Shown: positions 8-20,047 of the stretch, one piece after another
Layout of the letters: each line of letters starts with the position of its first letter
How positions within the stretch are numbered: the first letter of the stretch is position 1
Source: Parvularculaceae bacterium
GTDB lineage: Bacteria > Pseudomonadota > Alphaproteobacteria > Caulobacterales > Parvularculaceae
Assembly (NCBI GenBank): GCA_013215175.1
Contig: JABSRH010000004.1
Coordinates: 1-39,755 of the forward strand
Length of the DNA stretch: 39,755 nt
Reading direction: 5' to 3'
Program-made: the position numbers and the translations under genes
The notes under the pieces: generated by a model
The model's input: the letters and a program-made list of their open reading frames with translations, nothing else
The model's database searches: none
What the model was told of the DNA's origin: nothing

Positions 8-2206
8 CTAGACGCGTTCGACGAATACCGCTCTGATGGGATCGAGCAGAAGGTCATTTTTAATCAGTCCACCTATGCCAACGAGCGCTTCGGCACCCTG
101 CTGCAGAACCTGGCCCTTGGCGTTACGCTTGTGGTCGTCATCCTGTTCTTCACGTTAGGCCCACGAGCCGCCTTGCTGGTGACCCTCGCCATTCCGCTGA
201 CGACGTTTTTGAGCCTTGCGCTGATGAATGGTTTCGGCGTGCCGATCCACCAGATGTCCATCACAGGTCTCATCGTGGCGCTTGGCCTCTTGGTGGACGC
301 CGCGATCGTGACGGTCGATGCGACAGGTCGGGCCTTGCGCCGCGGAATGTCACCGCGAGACGCTGTGAGCGAGAGCGTAAGCCGCCTTTGGCTGCCGCTG
401 CTCAGCTCGACAGTGACCACGGTCTTGGCGTTCATGCCTATCACGTTGCTGCAAGGCGGGGCCGGTGAGTTCGTTGGCCCCATTGCCGACAGTGTGATCA
501 TTGCACTGATCGCGTCGCTCATCATTGCCCTGACGATCATTGCGGCGCTTGCGGGCCGTTTCCTCAAGCCGGCCATCAACGATGCGAAGACCTCGTCGGG
601 CGGCATTGAGGTGCCTGGCGTGGGCCCAGCGTTTAAGGCGTTGCTCGATCTCAGTTTGGCAGCGCCACGGCTGTCGATCGCAGCAGCCCTGGTGTTGCCA
701 GTGCTCGGATTCATCGGTGTGGGCACGTTGCCGACGCAGTTTTTTCCCGCAGCAGATCGCGACCAGTTCTATCTTGAGCTTGAATTGCCGCCGCAGGCCA
801 GCATTGCAGAGACTCAACTGGCTGCAGAGCGAGCCGATGAATATCTCGAGAGCCATCCCGATATTGAGTATGCGGATTGGTTCATCGGCAATTCAGCGCC
901 CGCGTTCTACTACAATTTGGTGGGTGGTCGCGACGGTTCGTCCAACTATGCCGGTGCCATGGTCAAGACCAAGACGTTTGAAGGGATCTCAGCGCTACTG
1001 AATGAGATCCAAGACGAGCTTTCCGTGGCCTTACCCAATGTCTACGTGAACGTGAAAGAGCTCGTTCAAGGACCACCAACGCCAGCGCCGTTCGAACTGC
1101 GCATTCAAGGCAGAGACATTCAAACGCTCCGTACGCTGGGTGAGCAGGCGCGGTTGATCCTATCCACCATCCCAGAAGTCACGGTGTCGACGGCGAGCCT
1201 AGCTGGTGGAGAGCCAAAGCTCTGGTTCGATGCCGACGAAGAGGCGGCGCGTTCAGCGGGTCTCAGCCTGCGGGACGTGGCCAATGGCTTGGCGGCGAAG
1301 TATCAAGGCGCACCTGCTGGCTCGGTTCTCGAAGGCGAGAACGACCTACCGGTTGTGGTAAGGTTGGACGACGCTGCTAGGGGATCGGTGGAGGCGTTAG
1401 CTTCGTCCGTGATCAGTGTTCGCGGTACGGATGGTATCGGCGCACCCTTGCTAAGCCTCGGTGAAGTCGCGCTCGAACCGAGCGCTGCGAAGATCACGCG
1501 CTATCAAGGGCAACGTGTCAACACCGTGCTCGCCTTCATCCGATCGGGCGCACTTCCGTCAACGGTGGTGGCGCAGTTCGAAGAGGCCGTGGCCAATGGT
1601 GAGTTTGAGATGCCCCCTGGTTACAGCTTCGCCTTGGGCGGTGATGCTGAGGCTCGCTCCGATGCCGTAGGCGGATTGTTGGCGTCGGTTGGCCTGATCG
1701 TCACGGCCATCATTGCCGTCGTGGTTCTCACTTTCGGCAGTTTCCGGCTCGGTGCGGTTGTTCTCGCTGTTGCGCTGCTCTCGATCGGTCTTGGCATGCT
1801 GAGCCTCGTGATCAGCGGCTACCCTTTTGGCTTCCAGCCGATCATTGCATTGATGGGACTGATGGGCGTGGCAATCAACGCCGCTATCATCATTCTCTCG
1901 ACGCTGAAGAACATACCCGAAGCGGTGGCGGGTGATCGGCATGCTGTGCGGGATGGGGTCTTAGAGACATCGCGGCACATCACCTCGACAACAATCACGA
2001 CCTTTGCTGGTTTCTTGCCGCTTATCCTGGCATCGGGTGCCTTCTGGCCACCATTTGCCACGGCGATTGCTGGCGGTGTGGTTCTATCCACGGTGGTCTC
2101 TTTCTTCTTTGTACCACAACTGTTCTTACTGCTGACGAGACGCAGACCGGTGAATGTCTTCGAGGCTGCTGAAACGCCTCAAGGAGGTGACTATGCGCTT
2201 GCGTAA
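8..2206 (+). CDS. RND efflux transporter permease subunit (AcrB/HAE1-like), C-terminal part; N-terminus not in window
   Basis: Frame 2 is open from position 8 (LDAFDEYRSDGIEQKVIFNQSTYANERFGTLLQNLALGVTLVVVILFF) to the stop at 2206. RND-type TM blocks and periplasmic porter domain are present. The ORF track starts at an internal Met (131). An in-frame TAG lies at 5-7, at the window edge. Confidence 0.93.
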   Translation, partial: LDAFDEYRSDGIEQKVIFNQSTYANERFGTLLQNLALGVTLVVVILFFTLGPRAALLVTLAIPLTTFLSLALMNGFGVPIHQMSITGLIVALGLLVDAAIVTVDATGRALRRGMSPRDAVSESVSRLWLPLLSSTVTTVLAFMPITLLQGGAGEFVGPIADSVIIALIASLIIALTIIAALAGRFLKPAINDAKTSSGGIEVPGVGPAFKALLDLSLAAPRLSIAAALVLPVLGFIGVGTLPTQFFPAADRDQFYLELELPPQASIAETQLAAERADEYLESHPDIEYADWFIGNSAPAFYYNLVGGRDGSSNYAGAMVKTKTFEGISALLNEIQDELSVALPNVYVNVKELVQGPPTPAPFELRIQGRDIQTLRTLGEQARLILSTIPEVTVSTASLAGGEPKLWFDADEEAARSAGLSLRDVANGLAAKYQGAPAGSVLEGENDLPVVVRLDDAARGSVEALASSVISVRGTDGIGAPLLSLGEVALEPSAAKITRYQGQRVNTVLAFIRSGALPSTVVAQFEEAVANGEFEMPPGYSFALGGDAEARSDAVGGLLASVGLIVTAIIAVVVLTFGSFRLGAVVLAVALLSIGLGMLSLVISGYPFGFQPIIALMGLMGVAINAAIIILSTLKNIPEAVAGDRHAVRDGVLETSRHITSTTITTFAGFLPLILASGAFWPPFATAIAGGVVLSTVVSFFFVPQLFLLLTRRRPVNVFEAAETPQGGDYALA

Positions 2207-3464
2207 CTTCACCGCGATTGTAGCGCTGCTTGGTACTCTCGGCACGGCTCACGCCACGGATACCAGCACGTTGCTTCGTGAATTGGTTCAGGAAAACCCG
2301 GCTCTTGCCGCCTCGAACCGCGAAGCCGAAGCGGCTCAGGCCGATCTTTGGGCGGCTCGCGGCAGCAGGTTGCCCCAGCTACGGATCGAAGGGTCAGCAA
2401 GCACGCTTGAGGAGACACTTCGCGTGAACGGGGTGCCCGGATCACTAACAGGAACGCGCGAACCGCTCGGCGCGACCGCCGTTGTGGAGCAGGCCCTCTT
2501 CACCTCCGGCCGCATTGGCGGTTCCGTCGGTGTGGCGCGTGCCCAGGCGCGCGGAGCAAAGCTCTCCGTGGATCAGGCGCGGCAAGATCTTCTGGTTCAA
2601 GGTGCAGCGGCCATTGCGGACGTCGTTCGTGACCGATCCGTCCTCGCTGAACGCCGGCGTAACGAAGAAACCGTCGGATCGCGGCTGGCCGAGAGCGTGG
2701 CACGACGTAAGGCGGGTCTTGCCACGAACACCGATGTTCAGCAGTCGGAGGCACGCTTAGCCCAAGCCGAGGCGGAGCGGATTGCTGCCCAAGGCGCGCT
2801 CTTGCGATCTGAGGCAGCCTTTCTACGTCTCTTTGATAAGAGGCCAACGGATGACCTGCTGCTGCCTACCAGCCCCGCCGCCATGCCAGACAACCTCCAG
2901 GTTGCCCTCGATCAGGCTCTGGCCAATAACCCTGACCTCGGGGTTAGTGAACAACAAGCCGAGGCAGCGCGGCAGGGCGTTAAGCAGGCACGCGGTGCCT
3001 ACCTGCCGCAAGTTAGCCTGAATGCTTCCGCCGGGTATATCGACAACGAACGCTTCGGTATCGATCTTGGTCAAGCTGAGCAATATACGCTCAGTGTACA
3101 AGGCAGCTGGGCTCTGTTTGATGGTGGCTCGTCCTTCGCCCGCACCCGAGCGGCAAAGCGGCGTCGCGATGCTGCGACCTCAGGGCTTGAGCAAGCCCGA
3201 CGGCTGGTTCGTGAGCAGACCATCGGTGCTTGGACCAACATGCTCGCTTCACGCTCCGCCGTACGAGCACGCGAAGCACAGGCTGTAGCCGCCGCAAGCG
3301 CTGCTGAGGGCGTCTCAGCTGAGTTCCGCTCCGGTCGCCGCACACGTTTGGATGTTCTTGATGCGGATCGAGAGAGGACGAATGCCGATGTCGCTCTGAT
3401 CGCTGCACGCCGGGACCTTGCGGTCGCTGAGTACAGCCTGCTGCGTGCTATGGGTCAGCTCTAG
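2193..3464 (+). CDS. TolC family outer-membrane efflux protein
   Basis: Start MRLRNFTAIVALLGTLGTAHA (signal peptide) after a strong SD (aaggaggtga, 2181-2190). It overlaps the RND stop. TolC-like helical repeats follow. The ORF-track start at 2154 is probably too early. Confidence 0.92.
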   Translation: MRLRNFTAIVALLGTLGTAHATDTSTLLRELVQENPALAASNREAEAAQADLWAARGSRLPQLRIEGSASTLEETLRVNGVPGSLTGTREPLGATAVVEQALFTSGRIGGSVGVARAQARGAKLSVDQARQDLLVQGAAAIADVVRDRSVLAERRRNEETVGSRLAESVARRKAGLATNTDVQQSEARLAQAEAERIAAQGALLRSEAAFLRLFDKRPTDDLLLPTSPAAMPDNLQVALDQALANNPDLGVSEQQAEAARQGVKQARGAYLPQVSLNASAGYIDNERFGIDLGQAEQYTLSVQGSWALFDGGSSFARTRAAKRRRDAATSGLEQARRLVREQTIGAWTNMLASRSAVRAREAQAVAAASAAEGVSAEFRSGRRTRLDVLDADRERTNADVALIAARRDLAVAEYSLLRAMGQL

Positions 3465-3541: not shown

Positions 3542-5158
3542 ATGGAATCCCTTGCCTTTGATCTGCGCCAAATGCCGCGCATTCCCTTGCCCGATGAACA
3601 TGTGGAGATGATCCGCGAGATCGGTGAGACGCGTTGGTACGATGCCGGCGAGATGATCGTCGAACCGAGTGGCGCCATGGACCGCTTCATCCTCTGCGAG
3701 GAGGGCGAGATCGAAGTGGTCGATCTGGTCACTGGCGAGCGTGCCGTTGATTCTACCATCGGGCCCAATCAATATCTCGGCGATATCGGTTTCCTGAACG
3801 GCGGGTCCTGGCATTTGCCGATGCGTACCTTCGTGAAAACCCAGTGTACGGAGGTTCCGCGAGAGGCCATGCTCGACCTCATGTCGCGCGTGCCCGAAAT
3901 GAGCGATATCATTGTCTCCGTTTTTGCAGCGCGGCGCCGACGGACCTTTGAGGATCAAGTGAGCGCCGTCACGATTGTCGGGGCTGAGAGGGATCCGACA
4001 CTAGGCTCAGTAGCGAGCTTTGCCTCGCGGAATAAGATCCCGGTGCGTCGTTTTGATGTGGGCAGCGAGGATGCCGACCGAGTCCTGGAGCGAGCTGGTG
4101 TGCCGCTCAACCAGCCTTCGGTCATCTTCGGCCGTGATACGGTGATCAAGAACCCGTGTCCTCGTGGGCTTGCCCGCTTAGTCGGGCTCGACATGCCGCT
4201 AAGCAATGAGGGCGTGTTCGATCTTGTCATCATCGGTGCTGGGCCTGCAGGTATAGCCGCGGCGGTTTATGCGGGTGCGGAAGGCCTCAAGGCACTCGTC
4301 ATAGAGGACTCCGTTATCGGCGGCCAGGCAGGAAGCTCTAGCCGTATCGAGAATTATATGGGCTTCCCTACTGGGATCTCCGGTGCAGACCTCTGTTTCC
4401 GAGGAGAGATCCAGGCCATGCGCCTTGGCACACGCTTCGTGATGCCTCGCCGCGCGGTCGGCATCAAGAAAGCCGACGGAACATTCTTCATTGAGCTGAA
4501 CGACGGCGAATGTGTGAAGTCAAAGTCGGTGCTCATTGCAACAGGCGTTCAATACCGTCGCCTACCGATGGATCGCTTGGAAGAATTCGAAGGGCAGGGG
4601 GTGTTCTACGCCGCCACCGATCTTGAAGCCCGCCACTGTGCTAACTCCGAAGCGGTGGTGATCGGGGGGGGGAATTCGGCTGGCCAGGCCGCCATGTATC
4701 TAAGCCGTACCGCAAAGCACGTTCATGTGCTCGTGCGCGGCAAGGAATTGGCACAATCCATGTCGTCGTATCTGTCCAACAGGTTGGAAAGCGATCCCAA
4801 GATCACCGTTCATTTCCAGACAGAGTGCCGTGCGCTCGATGGTTGTGACCGCCTACAGAATATCATGATCCGGAATAAAGAGAGTGGTGAGGAACAGCAG
4901 ATTACCACGCCTGCCTTGTTCATCATGGTGGGTGCAGCACCAAAAACCGAATGGATGGGTGATCTCGTGATGCTGGACGAGAAGGGCTTCATCATCACGG
5001 GCAACATGGACCATGACAGCTCCGCCTTCGCCACATCCTGCCCAGGCGTCTATGCCGTCGGCGATGTCCGGTCGGGTTCTGTCAAACGAGTAGCCTCCGG
5101 CGTGGGTGAAGGCTCGGTGGTCATCTCGTCTATCTGGAACCAAGTGAACGCCAGCTAA
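3542..5158 (+). CDS. Cyclic-nucleotide-binding-domain / thioredoxin-reductase-like FAD-NAD(P) oxidoreductase
   Basis: N-terminal cNBD-like fold (YDAGEMIVEPSGAMDRFILCEEGEIEVVDLVTGE...YLGDIGFLNGG), a middle thioredoxin-like segment, then FAD motif VIIGAGPAGIAAAVYA, NAD(P) motif VVIGGGNSAGQAAMYLS, and C-terminal GVYAVGDVR. Confidence 0.9.
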   Translation: MESLAFDLRQMPRIPLPDEHVEMIREIGETRWYDAGEMIVEPSGAMDRFILCEEGEIEVVDLVTGERAVDSTIGPNQYLGDIGFLNGGSWHLPMRTFVKTQCTEVPREAMLDLMSRVPEMSDIIVSVFAARRRRTFEDQVSAVTIVGAERDPTLGSVASFASRNKIPVRRFDVGSEDADRVLERAGVPLNQPSVIFGRDTVIKNPCPRGLARLVGLDMPLSNEGVFDLVIIGAGPAGIAAAVYAGAEGLKALVIEDSVIGGQAGSSSRIENYMGFPTGISGADLCFRGEIQAMRLGTRFVMPRRAVGIKKADGTFFIELNDGECVKSKSVLIATGVQYRRLPMDRLEEFEGQGVFYAATDLEARHCANSEAVVIGGGNSAGQAAMYLSRTAKHVHVLVRGKELAQSMSSYLSNRLESDPKITVHFQTECRALDGCDRLQNIMIRNKESGEEQQITTPALFIMVGAAPKTEWMGDLVMLDEKGFIITGNMDHDSSAFATSCPGVYAVGDVRSGSVKRVASGVGEGSVVISSIWNQVNAS

Positions 5159-5173
5159 CGGCGTGCACTGACC

Positions 5174-6580
5174 TTACCTCGGCGCTAGCCCCAGGGAATC
5201 GGTATCGATCACCGCTGCATTGAACGTGATCTGTGCAGCGGCCAGGCTGTATTCGGCCCTGGCCAGCTTAACCCGTGCGTCGGCGAAGGCCTCTTCGCGA
5301 AGGTTCACCAGGAAGAAGTCCGACGCGCCGCCGCGAAAACGCTGCGCTTCCGCCTGACGCATGGTGTCAGCGAGGGACACTTCTTGCTTCGTAAGGCGCA
5401 AAATGTCCCGGGCCGCCGTCAGGTTGGCAATGATGTCGTTCAGTTGGCGCATGATCTGATCACGGGTCAGACGTTGGCGCTGCCTCAAGGCCGACAGTTC
5501 GGCTTCGGCAGCGCGCACACGACCGCGGGCATCGCGGCGGCCTATCGGTACCGTGAACGTTGCAATAGCCGCCACTTCACCCGGATCACGACTGACACCG
5601 CCAGCACCAATAGCGCCGAAGTCGTTGCTCGCCTCGAGCTTGATGTTGAACTCAGGCTTGAGATCGTTTTCTGCCAAGGCCCGTGTGTTCTTGAGCTTGG
5701 CCTCACTGATCTCGAGCAACCGAACCGCAGGCTGACGATCTAACATCGTTGCTTCGTCGAACTCGGCTGACCCTTGCGGGATGGGTACAGCGCTAGGCAG
5801 ATCATCGCTGGTGGGCGTGATCGTATTACCGCCATCATCACGCAGATAGAGCGCGAGGCTGTTGGCCGCGAGGGCCAGTGCTCGCTCAGCCTGCCGAACA
5901 AATTCGCGGCGGCGCGTCAGGTTCTGAGCGTTCTCCGTCAAGAAGATCTCGGCGCGCGCGCCCGAAGCCACCTCTCGGCGGAGAGCCGAATCTCGATCTT
6001 CGGCGAGGCGTAAAAGATCTCTATACGCCTTAAGCTCACGACCCGCCGCTACCCAGCGCCAATAGGCAACAAGGGCTTTTTGCTGGATGCCCAACCGCGT
6101 CAGGAAGACATTGATTTCGGCCTCCTGGATCGCAAGGTCGGCCTGGCGCACATCGAGGCGGATCTCGTCGATCGATCGGTTCCTCAGGAGAGAAAAGAGA
6201 ACGCCAATTTTCGCTTCGCCCAAACGGTTGGTGAAATTGTAGTCGTCATAAATCGGAAAATCACCGTCAGAGACCCTATAGCCGCCGTAAACCTTTGATC
6301 CCAGCGTACCCAAAGGACGCTCAACCTCTGTGGTCAGAATATCGCCCGAATAGAAACCCGTCAGTCGCGTGTTGGCTTCGGATCGAAACACGGTATCGAA
6401 GGCACCGGAAGCCGACAGTCGCTTAGCGGCAGCAAGGTCTTCACCGGCCAACGCTGCCAGCACATCGGGATAATGACGCTGGGCCGACCGCGCTACTTGT
6501 TCGGGCAAGATGTCAGCCGCTGCTACGTTGAAGGACGCAGCAACGCCAGCTGACAGAAGGAGGAGGGTTCGACGGATCAT
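5174..6580 (-). CDS. TolC family outer-membrane protein
   Basis: Probable start MIRRTLLLLSAGVAASFNVAAADILPEQ at 6580, with an ATGA overlap with the upstream HlyD-type gene. TolC-like coiled-coil sequence. Confidence 0.85.
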   Translation of the reverse strand: MIRRTLLLLSAGVAASFNVAAADILPEQVARSAQRHYPDVLAALAGEDLAAAKRLSASGAFDTVFRSEANTRLTGFYSGDILTTEVERPLGTLGSKVYGGYRVSDGDFPIYDDYNFTNRLGEAKIGVLFSLLRNRSIDEIRLDVRQADLAIQEAEINVFLTRLGIQQKALVAYWRWVAAGRELKAYRDLLRLAEDRDSALRREVASGARAEIFLTENAQNLTRRREFVRQAERALALAANSLALYLRDDGGNTITPTSDDLPSAVPIPQGSAEFDEATMLDRQPAVRLLEISEAKLKNTRALAENDLKPEFNIKLEASNDFGAIGAGGVSRDPGEVAAIATFTVPIGRRDARGRVRAAEAELSALRQRQRLTRDQIMRQLNDIIANLTAARDILRLTKQEVSLADTMRQAEAQRFRGGASDFFLVNLREEAFADARVKLARAEYSLAAAQITFNAAVIDTDSLGLAPR

Positions 6581-7617
6581 TGAGGCTGCGAACTCGCCGT
6601 GGCCGCCACTTCGACAGTGTATTCTGGCGGGAAATTGTTCAGCTGGCGCCACACCTCACGCCAAAGAGGGACGCGATTGAGCAAGACCCATCCGCGTGTC
6701 GTCGCGCCGAAACGGACAAACCGCTCATCAGGCCAAGGATGTTCAGCGTCTGGCGCTTCGGTCACCAGAACGCGAAAACGGCCATCTGGCTGCGCTGTGG
6801 GATCGACGCCAATCACGACGCCTTCGAATGTGCCCACAGCAAGGGAGGGCCATCCTGAGAACTGGACCGCTGGCCAACCTTCAAAGAGAATCCGAACATC
6901 AGCCCCCGGATTAACAAGCGCCACGTCACGCCCATCCACGAAGATCTCCACGGCTCGCTCCGCACCATCGGGTTGGAACGTCGCGATCGCCTGACCAGCG
7001 CTGACGAATGTCGCGGTGTCGCCACCATCAACGCGCAGTATGGCTCCATCACGAGGGGCTCTAATGAGCTGCTGGCTTTGGCGCGATGCTGTCACCGACT
7101 GGCGGGTCAGAGATGCTTCCGCCGACGCCAGGTTGGCGCGCATGTCTTCCACCTTGATGGTAGCCAGCTCGAAATCCCTGCGGGCAGCGAGCCCCTGATT
7201 GAAGAGCTCCTCCGTACGGCGCAGGTCAATCTTTGCAGTCGCCAAAGCCGCAGCTGCCGCATCACGCTGGCGGATAATCTGTTGTTGCTCAGCATCAAGA
7301 CGTTGTAGGAGAAGGGGGTCGTTGTCCGCCAGGCGAAGGATGGGGTCTCCTGCTTTCACGCGAGAGCCGTCTTGCACGTACCAACGGTCAATCCGACCAG
7401 GCACGAGTGCGTTGATGTTCTGCACACGATCATTAGGGTCAAGCGCTGTTACAACACCAGGCCCAGACGTTGTTTGAACCCAGGGCACAAAGAACAAAAA
7501 AGCAGCTACCGCAAAGAACGCGGTGACGAGCATTACCGCAACAACGCGCACCAAGTGCGGCGTCTTGATCGAGTCGAGCGTCGACAGATGGACAATATGC
7601 TGGTCGCGGAAAGGCAT
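6577..7617 (-). CDS. HlyD-family periplasmic adaptor / membrane fusion protein
   Basis: Single N-terminal TM segment, biotinyl-lipoyl-like halves (VPGRIDRWYVQDGSRVKAGDPILRLADNDP; LIRAPRDGAILRVDGGDTATFVSAGQAIATF), coiled-coil hairpin. Confidence 0.9.
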   Translation of the reverse strand: MPFRDQHIVHLSTLDSIKTPHLVRVVAVMLVTAFFAVAAFLFFVPWVQTTSGPGVVTALDPNDRVQNINALVPGRIDRWYVQDGSRVKAGDPILRLADNDPLLLQRLDAEQQQIIRQRDAAAAALATAKIDLRRTEELFNQGLAARRDFELATIKVEDMRANLASAEASLTRQSVTASRQSQQLIRAPRDGAILRVDGGDTATFVSAGQAIATFQPDGAERAVEIFVDGRDVALVNPGADVRILFEGWPAVQFSGWPSLAVGTFEGVVIGVDPTAQPDGRFRVLVTEAPDAEHPWPDERFVRFGATTRGWVLLNRVPLWREVWRQLNNFPPEYTVEVAATASSQPQ

Positions 7618-7618
7618 C

Positions 7619-9370
7619 TTATCCCTCGGTCACAACAGGTTTGAGATGGGCGGCAGGGTCGTAGCGGTTCGCTCGATCCACGATGCTTTTGAACTGATGA
7701 TAGTCGGAGAGCATCTGTTGGTTCTCAGGTTCCAGCCAGAGGTAGCTGCCAAGCTTCATATCATCATTACGACCTGTAAAGACGATAACAGTAGACGGCG
7801 TGCCCCCATCCGTTTTCACCAGATCCAACGCCGCACGAAGCATGTCCGTAGGCAGAGTATCGTAAAGCTGATTCAGCACAAGCACCGAAGGCTGGGACAG
7901 GATGGCCGCTGCCAACTTGAGGCGCATAGCCTCGCCGATCGACAGCGGCCAGCCGGTGGTCGAAAGTGCTGTATCGAGACCATCTTCGAGGTCCTCGACG
8001 ACATCAACCAAACCCAGGGCCCGCAAAATACGAAGCATTTCTGAGCTCGGTGCATCTTTGTTCGCCAAGGTGAGATACTCGCGCATGGTCATCTCAACCA
8101 TGGTGGGACGATCGAGCGAAATCACCTCGCGGCGAAGACTTTGAACATCCTTGGACAGAATATCATCCCCGCCCAGCGTGATCAGGCCGCCTGCTGGTAG
8201 CTCAAAGCGCTTGATGAGGTTGGTAAAGAGACGCTGTGTACCATGGGTCGCGGCTTGCGCCTGAATACGCGAGCCCGAGGGGATCACCAGATCGAGCACA
8301 GCATCGCGACCACGGGCCTTGCCCCGCACGCCTTCAAACGTGAGCGAGGCGTCGGTGAGGCTGGGCTGTTCCACGCCGGATGGTTCTTCAAGGTCCACGG
8401 CTCGGAACATGCTGAGCTCTTCGCACGCCGCACACAGATCATAGAAATAATTGAGGTACGTCCCGAGCTGGCTAACCCCCACAAAGGCGACCGATAGGAC
8501 GAGCTCCGCCGCAACCAATTGGCCGAGGGTCAGCTGTCCCTGAATGACGAGCCAGCCACCGAGACCCAGCAGCGCGGCGCTGGCGGCGGCGTAGAGGACG
8601 AGGAAGCTCAGCGTCTGGCTGAAATGGCGGCGGAAGTGCTTCCGGTGCTCATTGATGTAATCACCAGCCGCTTCGTCCGTACGCTTCAGAGCAAAAGCGA
8701 TGTGAGCATCAGACTTGAAGTAGCCGTTGGACGCACCGAGCCCCTCCAACCAAGCCGCCGCGCGGTGTTTGGACTGGCTAAGGTCCACAGCGCTGCGAAT
8801 GGCGGGTGGGCCCCAGATGAACCAAATGGCACCGAGCAGTGCCATGAGCAGCAAATTGAAGCCCAAGAAATAGGGGTGGTAGAAGCTCGTCAGGATGAAG
8901 CCGACGCCTGCTTGCAAGATGATAGTGAAGCCGCCGACCATCAAAACGGGCGCGGATTTCTGCACCAGCATGATATCGAAGTAGCGATTGAAGAGAGGGC
9001 CGCGGCCGTCATCGACGAAGAAGGGATTCTTCGCATAGAGCGCGCGCAACGCGATCTCCGACGTCATGCGGGCATAGAAGCGGCGTCCAAAGATCTCCAT
9101 CAGGTGGACGCGCAAAGCGTTCATCATACCCGACGCCAGCAACAGCGCGAACAGCGTCAGCGACAACACCACGAGTGGCACCGTCAGGCCGGTATAACCC
9201 ACCGTGTTGATCAACACTTGAACCGCAATCGGCGTCGCCAGCGACATCAAACTGATGCCAATGCCGTAGATCACGGCGAGCCAGAAAAAGTTCCGCTCGT
9301 TCTTGAGGATCGACAGCATCAAGCCGACAATATGCCGTGCAGATACCTTTTGTGCGGGTGAACCGGCCAC
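7619..9370 (-). CDS. ABC exporter-type permease fused to a degenerate nucleotide-binding domain
   Basis: N-terminal six-TM-type exporter domain. The C-terminal domain aligns by eye with an ABC NBD (VLDLVIPSGSRIQAQAATHGTQRLFTNLIKRFELPAGGLITLGGDDILSKDVQSLRREVI ... WPLSIGEAMRLKLAAAIL ... SVLVLNQLYDTLP), but the catalytic motifs are substituted. Confidence 0.88.
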   Translation of the reverse strand: MAGSPAQKVSARHIVGLMLSILKNERNFFWLAVIYGIGISLMSLATPIAVQVLINTVGYTGLTVPLVVLSLTLFALLLASGMMNALRVHLMEIFGRRFYARMTSEIALRALYAKNPFFVDDGRGPLFNRYFDIMLVQKSAPVLMVGGFTIILQAGVGFILTSFYHPYFLGFNLLLMALLGAIWFIWGPPAIRSAVDLSQSKHRAAAWLEGLGASNGYFKSDAHIAFALKRTDEAAGDYINEHRKHFRRHFSQTLSFLVLYAAASAALLGLGGWLVIQGQLTLGQLVAAELVLSVAFVGVSQLGTYLNYFYDLCAACEELSMFRAVDLEEPSGVEQPSLTDASLTFEGVRGKARGRDAVLDLVIPSGSRIQAQAATHGTQRLFTNLIKRFELPAGGLITLGGDDILSKDVQSLRREVISLDRPTMVEMTMREYLTLANKDAPSSEMLRILRALGLVDVVEDLEDGLDTALSTTGWPLSIGEAMRLKLAAAILSQPSVLVLNQLYDTLPTDMLRAALDLVKTDGGTPSTVIVFTGRNDDMKLGSYLWLEPENQQMLSDYHQFKSIVDRANRYDPAAHLKPVVTEG

Positions 9371-11635: not shown

Positions 11636-12613
11636 TCAGGCTGAGCAACTCGCGCCGCCCAAAACGCAAAAGCGCGAGCAGTGAGGATGGTTCAGCACCA
11701 CGGCCTTCGAAGCTTCTTCCAACGTTTCGCCAAGGTCGAATTCTTCATCATAGGGAAGCAACGTACACGCCGCAACGCGAGGCGTGGCTTCACCCTTGCG
11801 CTTAATCACCATACGGCTGCTCGAGCACATCACCGATTGTTTCGTCAGGTTGAGGATGTTCCAACAATTCTCGCTGATTTCCGGTGTATCCAGGCTAGCG
11901 TCCATCTCCGGGAAGAGCACCAGATGCTCAGGATTGTCGACGTCTAGCTCGAGCTGAAGGTCCGCCAGCAAAGCTGTGTAGCCCGCTTTGGCGTCGTCCA
12001 TGCTCTCATCCGCCAACTGACGGCCTGCAATGGCCACCTGCGCACCTTGGTCGCGGAGCCAGCGGATGCCATCGAGCGCCTTGTCCCACGTATCGTCGCC
12101 CCGCTCCGCCTCGTGGTGGGCTTGGGTATAGTGATCGAGGCTGACGCGCATGGTCAGCTTGTCTCGGTACTGCGCAATGAGCAGTGCGAGCTCGCCATCA
12201 AAGCGGCGCATGGGGCGCATGGCGTTGGTCAGCACCAGCACCTCGAACCCACGCTCCAGGCAGGCTCGCAGGATGGGCAACATGTCTCGGTTCATGAAAG
12301 GCTCGCCGCCGGTGAAAGCGATCACCTTTGTGGGCAAGCGGTCGCGCTCGATCTCATCGAGATACGCCACCACCTCCGCCGTCGTGATGTAGACCAGGGC
12401 GTCGTTGGTGGGCGAGCTTTCGATATAGCAGTTCGCGCAAGCCAAATTGCAAAGCGTGCCGGTGTTGAACCAAAGCGTATCAAGCCCCGCCAACGGCACA
12501 AACGCACGCCGGTCGCCATCGCGGGTGAGGCGCGGATCAGCAAACTTATCGGTGGCCAAGGCCTCACCGGTTCGGCGGAAAGGGGACTGGGCGGCATCCA
12601 TGATTTGAACCAT
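11636..12613 (-). CDS. Radical SAM protein with Cys-rich C-terminus, adjacent to an arsenic methylation/arsenosugar-type cluster
   Basis: CxxxCxxC motif in LWFNTGTLCNLACANCYIESSP, FTGGEPFMNRD, and a C-terminal cysteine region VMCSSSRMV...VAACTLLPYDEEF...HPHCSRFCVLGGASCSA. Confidence 0.88.
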   Translation of the reverse strand: MVQIMDAAQSPFRRTGEALATDKFADPRLTRDGDRRAFVPLAGLDTLWFNTGTLCNLACANCYIESSPTNDALVYITTAEVVAYLDEIERDRLPTKVIAFTGGEPFMNRDMLPILRACLERGFEVLVLTNAMRPMRRFDGELALLIAQYRDKLTMRVSLDHYTQAHHEAERGDDTWDKALDGIRWLRDQGAQVAIAGRQLADESMDDAKAGYTALLADLQLELDVDNPEHLVLFPEMDASLDTPEISENCWNILNLTKQSVMCSSSRMVIKRKGEATPRVAACTLLPYDEEFDLGETLEEASKAVVLNHPHCSRFCVLGGASCSA

Positions 12614-12763
12614 ATCAGCCCTTTCGCGAGCGGCTCTGGGAAAGTTTCACTGCGCGTAACTTTGACGTGAGGCCAACGAACCTGTCAAAGGAAGAGACAA
12701 CACCTGGTCGATTTTTCGCGGCCGCATCCATCGCCACCTGGGTTGGCGGCATAGAGGGCATCC

Positions 12764-13807
12764 ATGAATCTCGAAAATTCTCAGCGCTATTACGGTCAGG
12801 TCCTGCAAGGCTCCACCGACCTCAAGACGGACGCTTGTTGTACGGCGGAGGCACCACCGCCGCATATCCGCCAGGCCCTCGCCAACGTCCACGATGAAGT
12901 GACGAGCCGCTATTACGGTTGCGGCCTCGTGGCGCCTGAGGCGTTGCAAGGTCTCTCGATCCTCGATCTCGGGTCGGGTAGCGGCCAGGACGCCTATGTC
13001 TTGGCACAGCTTGTGGGGCCCAAAGGCCGCGTCGTCGGGGTGGACGCTACGCCGGAACAGCTAGCCGTCGCGAATGCGCACAAAGATTGGCATGCTGAGC
13101 GCTTCGGCTATGCCAACGTGGAGTTCCTTGAAGGCGATATCGAAAAGCTAGACGAACTCGATCTTGAGCCCGGCAGCTTCGATGTGATCGTCTCAAACTG
13201 CGTCATCAACCTTGTCGCCGATAAAGCAGCTGTCTTCCGCCAAGCCCACCGCCTATTACGCGCTGGCGGGGAGATGTATTTCTCCGACGTGTACGCCGAT
13301 CGCCGCATCCCGCAGGCGCTGCAAGAAGATCCCGTGCTGCACGGCGAATGCATCTCGGGCGCACTCTATTGGGGCGATTTCGATCGCCTCGCTAAGGAAT
13401 GCGGCTTCACTGATCCGCGTCTGGTCCATGATCGCCCACTTGAGATCGGCGACCCTCAACAATTAGCGAAAGTGGAAGGCTACAGCTTCACCTCGGCGAC
13501 CTATCGCCTGTTCAAGCTCGAAGGCCTGGAACCTCAGTGTGAGGATTATGGCCAAGCCGTCCGTTATCGCGGCACACTGCCAGGCGAGGCGAATGCGTTC
13601 GCGCTCGACAACCATCATCTGATGGACAAGGGCCGCATGTTCCCAGTTTGTGGCAATACCTACCTGATGCTGAAAGAAACGCGCTTCGCGGAGCATTTCG
13701 ACTTCTTCGGCGACTTCTCCCAGCACTTTGGCATTTTCCCCGGCTGCGGCGTCGTCTCGCCCTATGGTGAAGACGGGACCGAGGCCGCTTCTGGCGCCTG
13801 CTGCTAA
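12764..13807 (+). CDS. arsM: Arsenite methyltransferase (ArsM-like)
   Basis: TDACCTAEAPPPHIRQAL...SRYYGCGLVAPEAL...ILDLGSGSGQDAYVLAQLVG, VSNCVINL, and C-terminal Cys residues (FPGCGVVSPYGED, ACC), all typical of bacterial ArsM. Confidence 0.88.
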   Translation: MNLENSQRYYGQVLQGSTDLKTDACCTAEAPPPHIRQALANVHDEVTSRYYGCGLVAPEALQGLSILDLGSGSGQDAYVLAQLVGPKGRVVGVDATPEQLAVANAHKDWHAERFGYANVEFLEGDIEKLDELDLEPGSFDVIVSNCVINLVADKAAVFRQAHRLLRAGGEMYFSDVYADRRIPQALQEDPVLHGECISGALYWGDFDRLAKECGFTDPRLVHDRPLEIGDPQQLAKVEGYSFTSATYRLFKLEGLEPQCEDYGQAVRYRGTLPGEANAFALDNHHLMDKGRMFPVCGNTYLMLKETRFAEHFDFFGDFSQHFGIFPGCGVVSPYGEDGTEAASGACC

Positions 13808-13809
13808 TC

Positions 13810-14829
13810 ATGGGGCAACGCGTACTGGTCACAGGCGCCGCTGGCCTCCTCGGCGGCGAGCTCTGCGGCCGCCTCGTGGATGCGGGGCATACGGTCTTTG
13901 GGCTGATCAATCGCAATCCTGAGATTCGCCGAAATTCCGGCGAACTGGTGGGTGAGGTGACCTGCCTTGCTGGCGATGTCACCCAGCCAGGCCTGGCGCT
14001 CGATGATGCGCCGGACGTCGACCTCGTGATCCACTGCGCTGCTGTCACCGATTTCACGGCCGAGAACGACCAACACAGAGCCGTTAATGTCGAGGGCACA
14101 CGGAATGTCCTTGCGCTCTGCGAGAGCTTAGGCGCGAAACTGCTCCACATCTCCACCGCCTATGTCTGCGGAGAACGTGGCGGCACCCATCGCGAAGACG
14201 ATCTCGACCTGACGACGCCCTTCACCAACGGCTATGAGTCCACCAAGGCACAAGCTGAAGCGCTCGTGCGCGAGAGCACGGTCGATTGGGCCATCGCTCG
14301 TCCAGCCATCATTCTTGGCGACCACAAAGAAGGCCGCACACGCAGCTTCGATACGATCTACCCGATCTTGAAGGTGTTCGCCGAAGGTTGGGTCAAGGTT
14401 ATGCCTGCCAAACCAGACGCCACCCTGCACCTCGTGCCCATTGACTATGTCTGCGACGGCATCATGCACATTGCCCAGCATTTTGACGACGCTCGGGGCC
14501 GATGCTTCCATCTGTGTGCCGAAGAACCGACACCACTCACCGCGTTTCCCGATACGCTGTCGCGATTCGAGGGCTTGAGCTTTCCCACCTGGGTCGACCC
14601 TGCCGATTTTGATCTAGCGTCCTTGCGCCCGGCTGAGCGGCGGTTTTTCCAACGCGGCGCTGAAGTTTATGCCAGTTATTTCGGACGCGATCTGCGCTTC
14701 GACGATCAGGGCTTTCGCGCTTTTTACGGTTCTGGCTGTCCGCCCACGGATATTGACTGGTGGCAACGCATCGTGAACTATTGCATTGAGGCGGGCTTCA
14801 TCCGCCCACGTGAGAAAAAGAAGGCCTAA
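13810..14829 (+). CDS. Extended SDR / NAD-dependent epimerase-reductase family protein
   Basis: VLVTGAAGLLGGELCGRL Rossmann start and YESTKAQAEALV (YxxxK) catalytic motif. Starts 2 nt after the arsM stop. Confidence 0.85.
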   Translation: MGQRVLVTGAAGLLGGELCGRLVDAGHTVFGLINRNPEIRRNSGELVGEVTCLAGDVTQPGLALDDAPDVDLVIHCAAVTDFTAENDQHRAVNVEGTRNVLALCESLGAKLLHISTAYVCGERGGTHREDDLDLTTPFTNGYESTKAQAEALVRESTVDWAIARPAIILGDHKEGRTRSFDTIYPILKVFAEGWVKVMPAKPDATLHLVPIDYVCDGIMHIAQHFDDARGRCFHLCAEEPTPLTAFPDTLSRFEGLSFPTWVDPADFDLASLRPAERRFFQRGAEVYASYFGRDLRFDDQGFRAFYGSGCPPTDIDWWQRIVNYCIEAGFIRPREKKKA

Positions 14830-14830
14830 C

Positions 14831-15403
14831 ATGCGCGTTGTTGTTCTCGCTCGCTGGCCTGAGCCAGGACGCTGCAAGACCCGGATGATTCCCGCCCTCG
14901 GGCCGGAGGGCGCTGCGGACCTTCACAAACGCCTCGCCGAAATGACCATCGAAACAGTGAAGGCATCCGGCTTAGCACTCGAACTCTGGGGCACCGGCGC
15001 CGATGAGGCAGCGTTTCAAGATTGGTTAGGTCCGGTCACGTTCCGTCAGCAGGCGGAAGGGGATCTCGGCGAGCGACTGCTGGCCGCGTCAGCGCCAGAG
15101 CCCGTCATGTTCTTAGGCACAGACGCGCCCGACCTTTCGCCTGGCCTCTTGCACCAGGCCGCTGATGGGCTGGTCGCCGCGCCCTGCGCCATCGGCCCGG
15201 CAGAGGACGGCGGCTACTGGACCCTCGCCATTGGCAAGCCAGCACCGAGCCTCTTCTCCGACATGCCATGGGGTACAGAGACCGTCTACGAAACCACGCG
15301 CAAACGCATCGACGCTCTCGGTTGGCAACCGGTCATCCTGCCGACCTTATCTGATCTCGATCGTCCAGAAGACCTCGAGCGTTGGCCTGAACTGAAGCCA
15401 TGA
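14831..15403 (+). CDS. Arsenosugar biosynthesis-type glycosyltransferase, TIGR04282-like
   Basis: MRVVVLARWPEPGRCKTRMIPALGPEGAADLHKRL...MFLGTDAPDLSPGLL...GPAEDGGYWTLAIG. The ORF-track start at 14786 overlaps the SDR; ATG 14831 follows its stop. Confidence 0.85.
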   Translation: MRVVVLARWPEPGRCKTRMIPALGPEGAADLHKRLAEMTIETVKASGLALELWGTGADEAAFQDWLGPVTFRQQAEGDLGERLLAASAPEPVMFLGTDAPDLSPGLLHQAADGLVAAPCAIGPAEDGGYWTLAIGKPAPSLFSDMPWGTETVYETTRKRIDALGWQPVILPTLSDLDRPEDLERWPELKP

Positions 15404-16128
15404 GCACACTGACCATTGTCATTCCCGTGCTCAACGAAGCCAGCACGCTGCCGCGCCTTGCGCGCAATTTGGCAAGCCTCGAGCCGCAGCCTAACGAGGT
15501 CATCGTCGTGGATGGCGGCAGCGACGACGATACGGTCAGCCTAGCACAATCGCTAGGCCTCAAGGTCATCGAACAGACCCCTGCAGGACGCGCTCGTCAG
15601 ATCAATCGAGGCGTCGAAGAAGCCGTCAGCAACCTCATCTGTGTGCTGCATGCCGATACATGGCTACCCGACGATGCCGTGAGCGTCATCCAGGCGACCA
15701 TGCTGGACCAAAAGACCGCGCTCGCCGGCTTCACCGCCATCTTAGCCGGCGACAAGACCACCCGTTGGGTCACATCCTTGCATAATTGGGCGAAGACTTG
15801 GTACGCGCCGCTTTTGTTCCGCCCCCATCTCTTTTTCAAGGGCTGCCGATTACTCTTCGGCGACCATGCGATGTTCTTTCGCAAAGAACAGTTTCAAGCC
15901 GTGGGCGGCTGTGATCCCGAGATGATGGTGATGGAAGAAGCTGACCTCTGTGTGAAGATCGTCTCGCAAGGTCGCGTTCGCTTGATCAACAGAATCGTTG
16001 AGACCTCAGACCGCCGTGTGGCGGCCTGGGGTGAACTCAAGGCCAACTGGATCTATCTCCAAGTCGGCATCCGGTGGGGCCTGGGTCTGCGCAAACGTCT
16101 AGGCGATCAGTATCCGGACGTCCGCTAA
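15400..16128 (+). CDS. Arsenosugar biosynthesis-type family 2 glycosyltransferase, TIGR04283-like
   Basis: LTIVIPVLNEASTLPRLARNLASLEPQPNEVIVVDGGSDDDTVSLAQ...ARQINRGVEEA; ATGA overlap with the preceding gene. Confidence 0.87.
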   Translation: MSTLTIVIPVLNEASTLPRLARNLASLEPQPNEVIVVDGGSDDDTVSLAQSLGLKVIEQTPAGRARQINRGVEEAVSNLICVLHADTWLPDDAVSVIQATMLDQKTALAGFTAILAGDKTTRWVTSLHNWAKTWYAPLLFRPHLFFKGCRLLFGDHAMFFRKEQFQAVGGCDPEMMVMEEADLCVKIVSQGRVRLINRIVETSDRRVAAWGELKANWIYLQVGIRWGLGLRKRLGDQYPDVR

Positions 16129-18142: not shown

Positions 18143-18403
18143 AGCCGCCATAAAGCCGAGGCCTGGCACCCGAGCATAGGCCTCGGTGAACGCCCTTGCT
18201 CCGTCCACCACCTCTCCTGACGGCAGGCGAGCGTGAAACCGCGCCATCAAGACCTCACGATCAATCGGACACGAGATAGGTGCGTCAGGGTCGGCTACAT
18301 TTTCAAACGCCAGCCGGTCACGTCGATCGAGCCTTCGCAACAGCGAAATCTCACGCACGCAGAGCGGACACGAACCATCGAAAAAAATAGTCACTTCGGC
18401 CAT
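18038..18403 (-). CDS. DCC1-like thiol-disulfide oxidoreductase (DUF393)
   Basis: MAEVTIFFDGSCPLCVREISLLRRLDRRDRLAFENVADPD; probable start at 18403. The 3' end overlaps the convergent DUF393 gene. Confidence 0.82.
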   Translation of the reverse strand: MAEVTIFFDGSCPLCVREISLLRRLDRRDRLAFENVADPDAPISCPIDREVLMARFHARLPSGEVVDGARAFTEAYARVPGLGFMAALGRFGPSHAFLNWGYGLFLKVRPRLQWLARRANL

Positions 18404-18550
18404 GCCGCCGATATGGCATCGCCGATCCTTCTGCGCCAGTGGGCAGATGCGCACGATGGCAAAACGCCTTGGCGCATGCGGGTTTCATGGCTTATCAACG
18501 CCCCAGGAAACGGTGCTCAAGCCGTGATTTTTCGATCCAAGGGAGGATCC

Positions 18551-20047
18551 ATGCGCGAAATTTTGCACTTCGTGAATGGCGAACGCGTTGCACTCACCGG
18601 CCAACGTCGGAGCGACATCTTCAACCCCAACACCGGCCAAGTTCAGGCGCAAGCTGCTCTGGGTACAGCGGATGACCTTGGCACCGCGGTTGCGGCGGCG
18701 CGCGCCGCTCAACCCGGTTGGGCCGCAACGAACCCCCAGAAGCGAGCACGGGTCCTATTCAACTTCAAGCAGCTGCTTGAAGACAACATGGACGAGTTGG
18801 CCGAACTCTTATCCTCCGAGCACGGCAAAGTGGTGGCCGATAGTCGTGGCGACGTGCAGCGCGGCCTAGAGGTCATCGAATTCGCTTGCGGCATCCCTCA
18901 TCTTCTCAAGGGCGAGTACACGGAGAATGCAGGCGGCGGCATCGACGTCTATTCCATGCGGCAACCGCTAGGGGTCTGCGCCGGCATCACGCCGTTCAAC
19001 TTCCCCGCCATGATCCCGATGTGGATGTTCGGCGTCGCCATCGCGTGTGGCAACACGTTCATCCTCAAGCCGTCAGAGAAAGATCCATCCGTGCCCGTGA
19101 GGCTCGCTGAGCTCATGATGGAAGCAGGCGCACCGGCAGGCGTTTTGAATGTTGTGCACGGCGATAAGGAGGTCGTTGACGCGATCCTTCACCACCCTGA
19201 CATTTCAGCCGTCAGCTTTGTGGGATCCTCCGACATCGCCCAATATGTCTACGCCACCGGCACCGCCAATGGTAAGCGCGTGCAGGCCATGGGCGGCGCG
19301 AAGAACCACGGCATCATCCTGCCCGACGCCGACATGGAGCAGACCGTCAAAGATATGGTCGGCGCCGCTTACGGCTCCGCCGGCGAGCGGTGCATGGCGC
19401 TGCCCGTGGCTGTTCCTGTTGGGAAGAAGACCGCTGACACCTTCGTGGAGATGATGACGGAGGAAGTAGGTAAACTGAATATTGGTGTGTCAACCGATCC
19501 CGACGCTCACTACGGGCCCGTCGTTTCCGCTGCGCATCGCCAGCGTATTGAGCAGTACATTGCCATGGGCGTGGAAGAGGGCGCCTCGCTTCTCATCGAT
19601 GGCCGAGGCATGACCCTGCAAGGCCACGAAGAGGGCTTCTTCATCGGCCCCTCGCTCTTCGACAATGTGAAGCCGGATATGCAAAGCTATCGCGATGAAA
19701 TCTTCGGCCCTGTTCTTCAGGTGGTCCGGGCCGAGACAGCAGAAGAAGCTATCGCTCTGCCTTCGAACCATCAGTACGGCAATGGTGTGGCGATCTTCAC
19801 CCGTGACGGCAACGCCGCGCGTGAGTTCGCCCGCAACGTCAATGTTGGCATGGTGGGCATCAATGTTCCGATTCCGGTACCCGTCTCTTACCACACCTTT
19901 GGCGGCTGGAAGCGCTCAGCGTTTGGCGACATCAACCAGCATGGCCCCGAGGGCGTTCGCTTCTGGACCAAGGTGAAGACGGTGACGCAACGTTGGCCAT
20001 CAGGCAGCGTCAGTGATCAGAGCTTTATCATTCCGACCATGCAGTAG
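18551..20047 (+). CDS. mmsA: CoA-acylating methylmalonate-semialdehyde dehydrogenase
   Basis: MREILHFVNGERV start; VCAGITPFNFPAMIPMWMFGVAIACGNTFILKPSEKDPS and GSAGERCMALPVAVPVG (catalytic Cys) motifs. Confidence 0.93.
   Translation: MREILHFVNGERVALTGQRRSDIFNPNTGQVQAQAALGTADDLGTAVAAARAAQPGWAATNPQKRARVLFNFKQLLEDNMDELAELLSSEHGKVVADSRGDVQRGLEVIEFACGIPHLLKGEYTENAGGGIDVYSMRQPLGVCAGITPFNFPAMIPMWMFGVAIACGNTFILKPSEKDPSVPVRLAELMMEAGAPAGVLNVVHGDKEVVDAILHHPDISAVSFVGSSDIAQYVYATGTANGKRVQAMGGAKNHGIILPDADMEQTVKDMVGAAYGSAGERCMALPVAVPVGKKTADTFVEMMTEEVGKLNIGVSTDPDAHYGPVVSAAHRQRIEQYIAMGVEEGASLLIDGRGMTLQGHEEGFFIGPSLFDNVKPDMQSYRDEIFGPVLQVVRAETAEEAIALPSNHQYGNGVAIFTRDGNAAREFARNVNVGMVGINVPIPVPVSYHTFGGWKRSAFGDINQHGPEGVRFWTKVKTVTQRWPSGSVSDQSFIIPTMQ

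Follow-up and report, generated by a model that had tools for sequence, protein, structure and literature searches.

The window, a stretch of 39,755 nucleotides from a Parvularculaceae bacterium (contig JABSRH010000004.1), encodes dABC, an ABC-exporter-like permease from a family which has the fold and the operon of an ABC exporter of the T1SS kind but lacks the ATPase features that define such exporters. Comparison of the family sequences strongly supports that the dABC ATPase has been lost. The reading we favour, tentatively, is that of an ATP-independent, probably ion-gradient-driven tripartite exporter, which would have descended from a T1SS-like ABC system and have its NBD as a structural pseudo-ATPase. 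The features on which the analysis is based are the following.

5174..6580, minus strand: OEP/TolC-type outer-membrane channel, the third gene of the family loci (PF02321, 87.7 bits)
6577..7617, minus strand: HlyD-family periplasmic adaptor of 346 aa (PF13437, alignment, AF2 model)
7619..9370, minus strand: dABC, ABC-exporter-like permease of 583 aa (PF00664 and PF00005, AF2/Foldseek, motif alignment)
7835..7903, minus strand: degenerate stretch of Walker B and the D-loop, residues 490-512, ILSQPSVLVLNQLYDTLPTDMLR, from which the ATS triplet of canonical exporters is missing
7919..7981, minus strand: degenerate signature stretch, residues 464-484, GLDTALSTTGWPLSIGEAMRL (motif counts in the family)
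8195..8270, minus strand: degenerate Walker A stretch, residues 367-391, SRIQAQAATHGTQRLFTNLIKRFEL (motif counts in the family)
8405..8530, minus strand: TM6 with its extension into the cytoplasm, residues about 281-322, with the family-invariant block GQLVAAE that contains E289

The frame at 7619-9370 on the minus strand is unbroken over 583 codons, as the earlier note had claimed. It encodes a full TMD at about residues 11-323 and a pseudo-NBD at about 343-554. In the Pfam search dABC scored 39.7 bits against PF00664 and 26.3 bits against PF00005, the latter just over the curated cut-off of 25, and since such weak scores still pass, the relatives are automatically labelled 'ABC transporter ATP-binding protein'. 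The AlphaFold (AF2) model, made from a 67-row alignment, has a mean pLDDT of 89 with the NBD mostly above 90. Its top PDB match in Foldseek is HlyB (8dck), with a TM-score of 0.83 at 18% identity, TmrAB and TM287/288 are also high among the fold matches, and PCAT1 is matched too. dABC has a six-TM domain fused to an NBD fold, with homologous sequence, as in an ABC exporter. From the pLDDT of the model and the match to HlyB, the NBD is predicted to be folded and not collapsed. That its layout is kept while the diagnostic residues are substituted had been claimed from the sequence, and the model, the match to HlyB and the motif alignment agree.

The strings QAATHGTQRLF, ISLDRPTM, LSIGE, VLVLNQLYD and VIVFTGRND, reported earlier as what is left of the motifs, were all found in the translation, and alignment to canonical exporters likewise places a replacement at every ATPase motif. 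The canonical Walker A G..GK[ST] aligns to THGTQR, the Q of the Q-loop to R, the signature LSGG[QE] to LSIGE, the DE of Walker B to NQ, with a three-residue deletion ahead of the D-loop, and the H of the H-switch to a residue other than His. The family set consists of 107 dABC sequences, to which a few genomes contribute twice. The canonical Walker A, GxxGxGK[ST], is kept in 3/107, Walker B D-E in 1/107 and the LSGG[QE] signature in 0/107. At the Walker A position the canonical K has become Q in 86 and the S has become R in 88 of the 107; the Q-loop position is R in 92, the E480 column is conserved in 92, and a GxPL-S-x-x-E pattern is conserved in place of LSGG[QE]. Chance is excluded, since more than 80 orthologues conserve the replaced motifs. 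Ordinary ATP-driven cycling is not expected of proteins in which the ATPase motifs are replaced throughout the family, and the earlier claim to this effect stands.

The new residues (QR for KS, DR for the Q-loop, and E480) are themselves conserved, which implies that the pocket is under selection. It is conceivable, but improbable, that these residues allow the pseudo-NBD to bind a nucleotide, ATP or another, and that binding rather than hydrolysis, or an unusual chemistry of hydrolysis, is what matters. The retention of Walker A in deep members would fit such a role. On the other hand, the glycine-rich loop is lost in the core clade, the replaced residues drift among the subclades, and the NBD is the less conserved of the two domains.

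The order in which the motifs were lost can be read from the deep members. Those with a retained Walker A are Riemerella and the loci L137 and L150, and Persicobacter has a near-Walker A (GKN). L150 additionally keeps Walker B D-E, but it is without signature, Q-loop and H-switch. No deep member has the signature, and the Q-loop and H-switch, replaced in L150, are changed in the others. With three deep members retaining Walker A, ATP binding without hydrolysis may be the ancestral state. In a tree built on the TMD only, all family members form one clade on a long stem, apart from 21 canonical exporters (support 100/99), and the core clade from Alpha- and Gammaproteobacteria, which is without Walker A, is nested inside the family (support 96/93). 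The loci L154 and L155 (G1069 and G837) have a more eroded and shortened NBD in frames of 517-520 aa, with no recognisable Walker A, signature or H-switch and with the TM6 block retained. Two deep members have an extra N-terminal region upstream of the TMD, about 145 aa in Persicobacter and about 190 aa in L150, and these regions, read by eye, appear to be C39-like.

Motif loss alone resembles decay, but a pseudogene or an assembly error is refuted as the explanation of dABC, and we give it next to no weight: the frames are intact in 80 loci and in isolates, and the same substitutions occur across orders. In the 30 closest usable pairs dN/dS ranged from 0.005 to 0.26 in the TMD and from 0.01 to 0.27 in the NBD; it was higher for more distant pairs, as expected from saturated dS. 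Both domains, the dead NBD included, are under strong purifying selection, and values near 1, which the earlier note had named as the sign of simple pseudogenisation, were not obtained for the NBD in these pairs. A sequencing error, also raised there, is excluded by the substitutions being common to many independent genomes, isolates among them. The view that dABC does not look like a decaying pseudogene has thus held.

The distribution of constraint between the domains is inverted. Within the family, TMD identity exceeds NBD identity in 528/528 pairs, whereas among the canonical exporters the NBD is the more identical domain in 210/210 pairs. The canonical set covers several subfamilies and its low TMD identity is partly due to this breadth, but the direction of the difference persists in matched bins of TMD identity. 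Such an inversion is what would be expected if the engine sits in the TMD.

ABC exporters are dimers with two composite sites, to each of which one half must contribute Walker A/B and the other half the signature. TM287/288, TmrAB, BmrCD, TAP and CFTR share with dABC the ABC-exporter fold with degenerate NBD motifs, but they keep one complete composite site per dimer. The degenerate half of a heterodimer keeps either Walker A/B or the signature. dABC has lost both sets, and it could therefore not assemble a composite site even with an active partner. This weighs against the explanation that dABC is a dead half-transporter that pairs with an active ABC half, or one that borrows a soluble NBD encoded elsewhere, which we consider improbable and, if anything, slightly more so than nucleotide binding by the new residues. 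Pairs of one degenerate and one active half are common among heterodimeric ABC exporters (PMC7756269), and other ABC exporters are present in the genome. No partner half is encoded near dABC, however: a canonical ABC NBD was found within about 6 kb in just 1/80 loci, and the operon is not accompanied by a conserved fourth gene.

A single base separates the TAA stop of dABC (7621-7619) from the ATG of HlyD, and the stop of HlyD and the start of OEP overlap as ATGA at 6580-6577; both the abutting genes and the overlap had been described before and are read here at these positions. The ATG at 6580 is more likely to be the OEP start than the upstream GTG at 6652. In the AF2 model (pLDDT 81) the HlyD protein has one TM (21-43), a two-helix hairpin (103-181) and a beta domain, in which the alignment shows an invariant motif, FEGWP.xQxSGWPS. 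The loop at 249-259, which is part of the invariant stretch and is modelled with low confidence, may dock on a partner. The HlyD gene is next to dABC in 80/80 loci and the OEP gene is present in 75/80, the remainder being short contigs or gene-calling overlaps, and the order dABC-HlyD-OEP was seen wherever the contig was long enough. Among 321 sampled gammaproteobacterial genomes (the class of G756), 12 contain dABC, and the same 12 contain its HlyD; the two were never seen separately, which makes them an obligate pair.

Adjacent genes for a permease, a HlyD-family adaptor and a TolC-family channel are the arrangement of a T1SS, and HlyB/HlyD/TolC, whose permease is the best fold match, has the same gene order. 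In contrast to a T1SS, the dABC operon is without functional ATPase motifs and without a conserved RTX or other substrate gene beside it, and its adaptor scores nearer to RND-type (86 bits) than to T1SS-type adaptors (62 bits). Against the T1SS permease/ATPase model TIGR01846, dABC scores 75.7 bits, below the curated cut-off of 725.55.

All-against-all clustering of the neighbours in the 80 loci gave no fourth gene (substrate, regulator or ATPase) conserved across lineages. The clusters beyond the three core genes are lineage-local, such as an Erythrobacteraceae group in 18 loci and LysR regulators in 13. As no gene for a protein substrate or an accessory protein is conserved with the operon, a small molecule or a lipid-like compound is weakly favoured as the substrate over a dedicated secreted protein. 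A DabA gene adjoins the dABC operon at L143:1362-3914 and L159:1-3651, with a DabB-like subunit also in L159; these are two of about 100 loci, in unrelated genomes, and the association is possibly due to chance. A link to DabAB, an inorganic-carbon transporter, was rejected; the other large neighbours tested were TonB receptors, an amidase, a molybdenum hydroxylase and a P-type ATPase, all unrelated.

The window also holds other features of interest. At 131-3464 there is a second export system, in which an RND permease, truncated where the contig starts, precedes a TolC-family channel that scores over the T1SS TolC cut-off, and at 3542-5158 a cyclic-nucleotide-binding domain is fused with a thioredoxin-reductase-like flavoprotein. 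An arsenosugar-type cluster at 11636-16128 comprises a radical SAM protein, an ArsM-like methyltransferase, an SDR/thioester-reductase-like protein and two glycosyltransferases (TIGR04282 and TIGR04283, both over the curated cut-off). The methylmalonate-semialdehyde dehydrogenase at 18233-20047 has about 110 extra N-terminal residues ahead of the match, which may be a start-codon artefact.

The family has gained a residue in the membrane domain. E289, with its codon at 8504-8506 on the minus strand, ends a block GQ(L/F)(V/I)A(A/S)E in which the glutamate is present in 107/107 family members, while the 21 canonical exporters have L, A, N, M, V, I, F or T at this position and never E (0/21). In the AF2 model it sits seven residues into the sixth helix (282-323). 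HMMER aligns it to F331 of mouse P-glycoprotein, which is F335 of the human protein, and human F335 is listed among the drug-pocket contacts in a docking study (PMC7312539). E289 is a conserved, titratable residue that would be embedded in the membrane, and we infer from the alignment that it is buried and oriented toward the translocation path. At the base of the clade E289 appears together with the loss of the signature, and the two changes may be linked, as a correlation on one branch. No basic partner for E289 was visible inside the TM helix of HlyD in the HlyD alignment.

LmrA and MsbA from which the NBD has been removed move ethidium on a proton gradient, and LmrA requires for this a glutamate in TM6, E314 (PMC6155054, PMC4979069). 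In LmrA-MD and MsbA-MD an ABC TMD moves substrate without an ATPase, and in LmrA with a functional TM6 carboxylate (PMC6155054, PMC4979069), but these are laboratory constructs of ATP-driven pumps, whereas dABC would be a natural case with the pseudo-NBD retained. The glutamates of LmrA and dABC are at different heights in TM6; E289 is estimated to lie about 20 residues nearer the periplasmic end, and we rejected it as the equivalent of E314. EmrAB-TolC and AcrAB-TolC also combine an ion-gradient-driven permease with an MFP and an OEP. The likeness to dABC is a functional analogy only, as their permeases are MFS or RND proteins and that of dABC is of ABC-exporter descent.

On the reading that we tentatively favour, an old type-I-secretion-like tripartite exporter of dABC, HlyD and OEP lost ATP hydrolysis and stayed a working transport machine. 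dABC would be a homodimer in which the pseudo-NBDs serve as a scaffold for dimerisation and coupling and not as the engine. The alternating access of the TMD would be powered by a gradient of protons, or of another ion, and E289, turned toward the translocation path, would be the residue that is titrated, as proposed by comparison with NBD-truncated LmrA and MsbA. HlyD and OEP would take the substrate through the periplasm to the outside. Instead of carrying protons, E289 could serve to bind a cationic substrate or to stabilise the structure. That natural ABC exporters have in this way switched from ATP to an ion gradient, as secondary-active tripartite pumps with a pseudo-ATPase scaffold and a single TM6 glutamate for coupling, is a real possibility, which we hold a little more guardedly than the general reading of an ATP-independent exporter.

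ABC exporter folds can turn into a channel, as in CFTR, or a channel regulator, as in SUR. With the ATPase lost in the family, dABC might likewise be a passive or gated conduit, an envelope scaffold that anchors HlyD-OEP, or a sensor or regulated pore, and would then not transport actively. This is the alternative that we take most seriously, although we think it unlikely. The invariant partnership with HlyD-OEP would fit a trans-envelope duct, but a duct open through both membranes is costly, the constraint on the TMD and the new invariant acid exceed the needs of a plain anchor, and no conserved fourth gene is there as a regulated target. Of the three ways out that the earlier note had proposed, another energy source is the best supported, an ATPase borrowed from elsewhere is disfavoured by the loss of both motif sets and the single locus with an NBD nearby, and a scaffold, sensor or channel stands as an alternative to the ion-gradient-driven exporter that we prefer.

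The 107 homologues come from Alphaproteobacteria, Gammaproteobacteria and Bacteroidota, two phyla. In related genomes an orthologue was found in 8/60, with 57-72% identity, and the remaining matches, at about 20-30%, were ordinary ABC exporters. From the GTDB scan came 80 loci, which belong to Parvularcula, Erythrobacter/Porphyrobacter, Sphingomonas, Novosphingobium, Kordiimonadaceae, Halieaceae and Woeseiaceae. The occurrence is patchy, 3/385 sampled Alphaproteobacteria and 11/399 sampled Pseudomonadota, a count that leaves out L138, a canonical exporter that also passed the threshold. Plasmids of sphingomonads carry dABC too, as do replicons from Bacteroidota (Riemerella, Persicobacter and Aureibacter), always with HlyD alongside and with TolC too wherever this was inspected. 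Among the syntenic homologues, to which the earlier note had pointed as a place to look for intact Walker A/B motifs, none with an intact ATPase was found, the nearest being L150, but Bacteroidota were sampled only via plasmid records and one may exist there.

ATP hydrolysis is what defines ABC transporters, and the known degenerate exporters retain at least one working site. A literature search on degenerate or ATPase-dead T1SS permeases returned reviews of heterodimers and the work on LmrA and MsbA, and the dABC family was not described there. The naming of its members as ATP-binding proteins is a systematic misannotation. The residue E289, the obligate adaptor with its invariant GWP loop, and non-pathogenic hosts such as Novosphingobium aromaticivorans DSM 12444, where the operon is SARO_RS19820-19810 (L142), offer handles on the system. 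The claim that an ABC TMD can be driven by an ion gradient is disputed and has so far rested on truncated LmrA and MsbA, and a widespread family that is under selection without any site would be a natural test of it.
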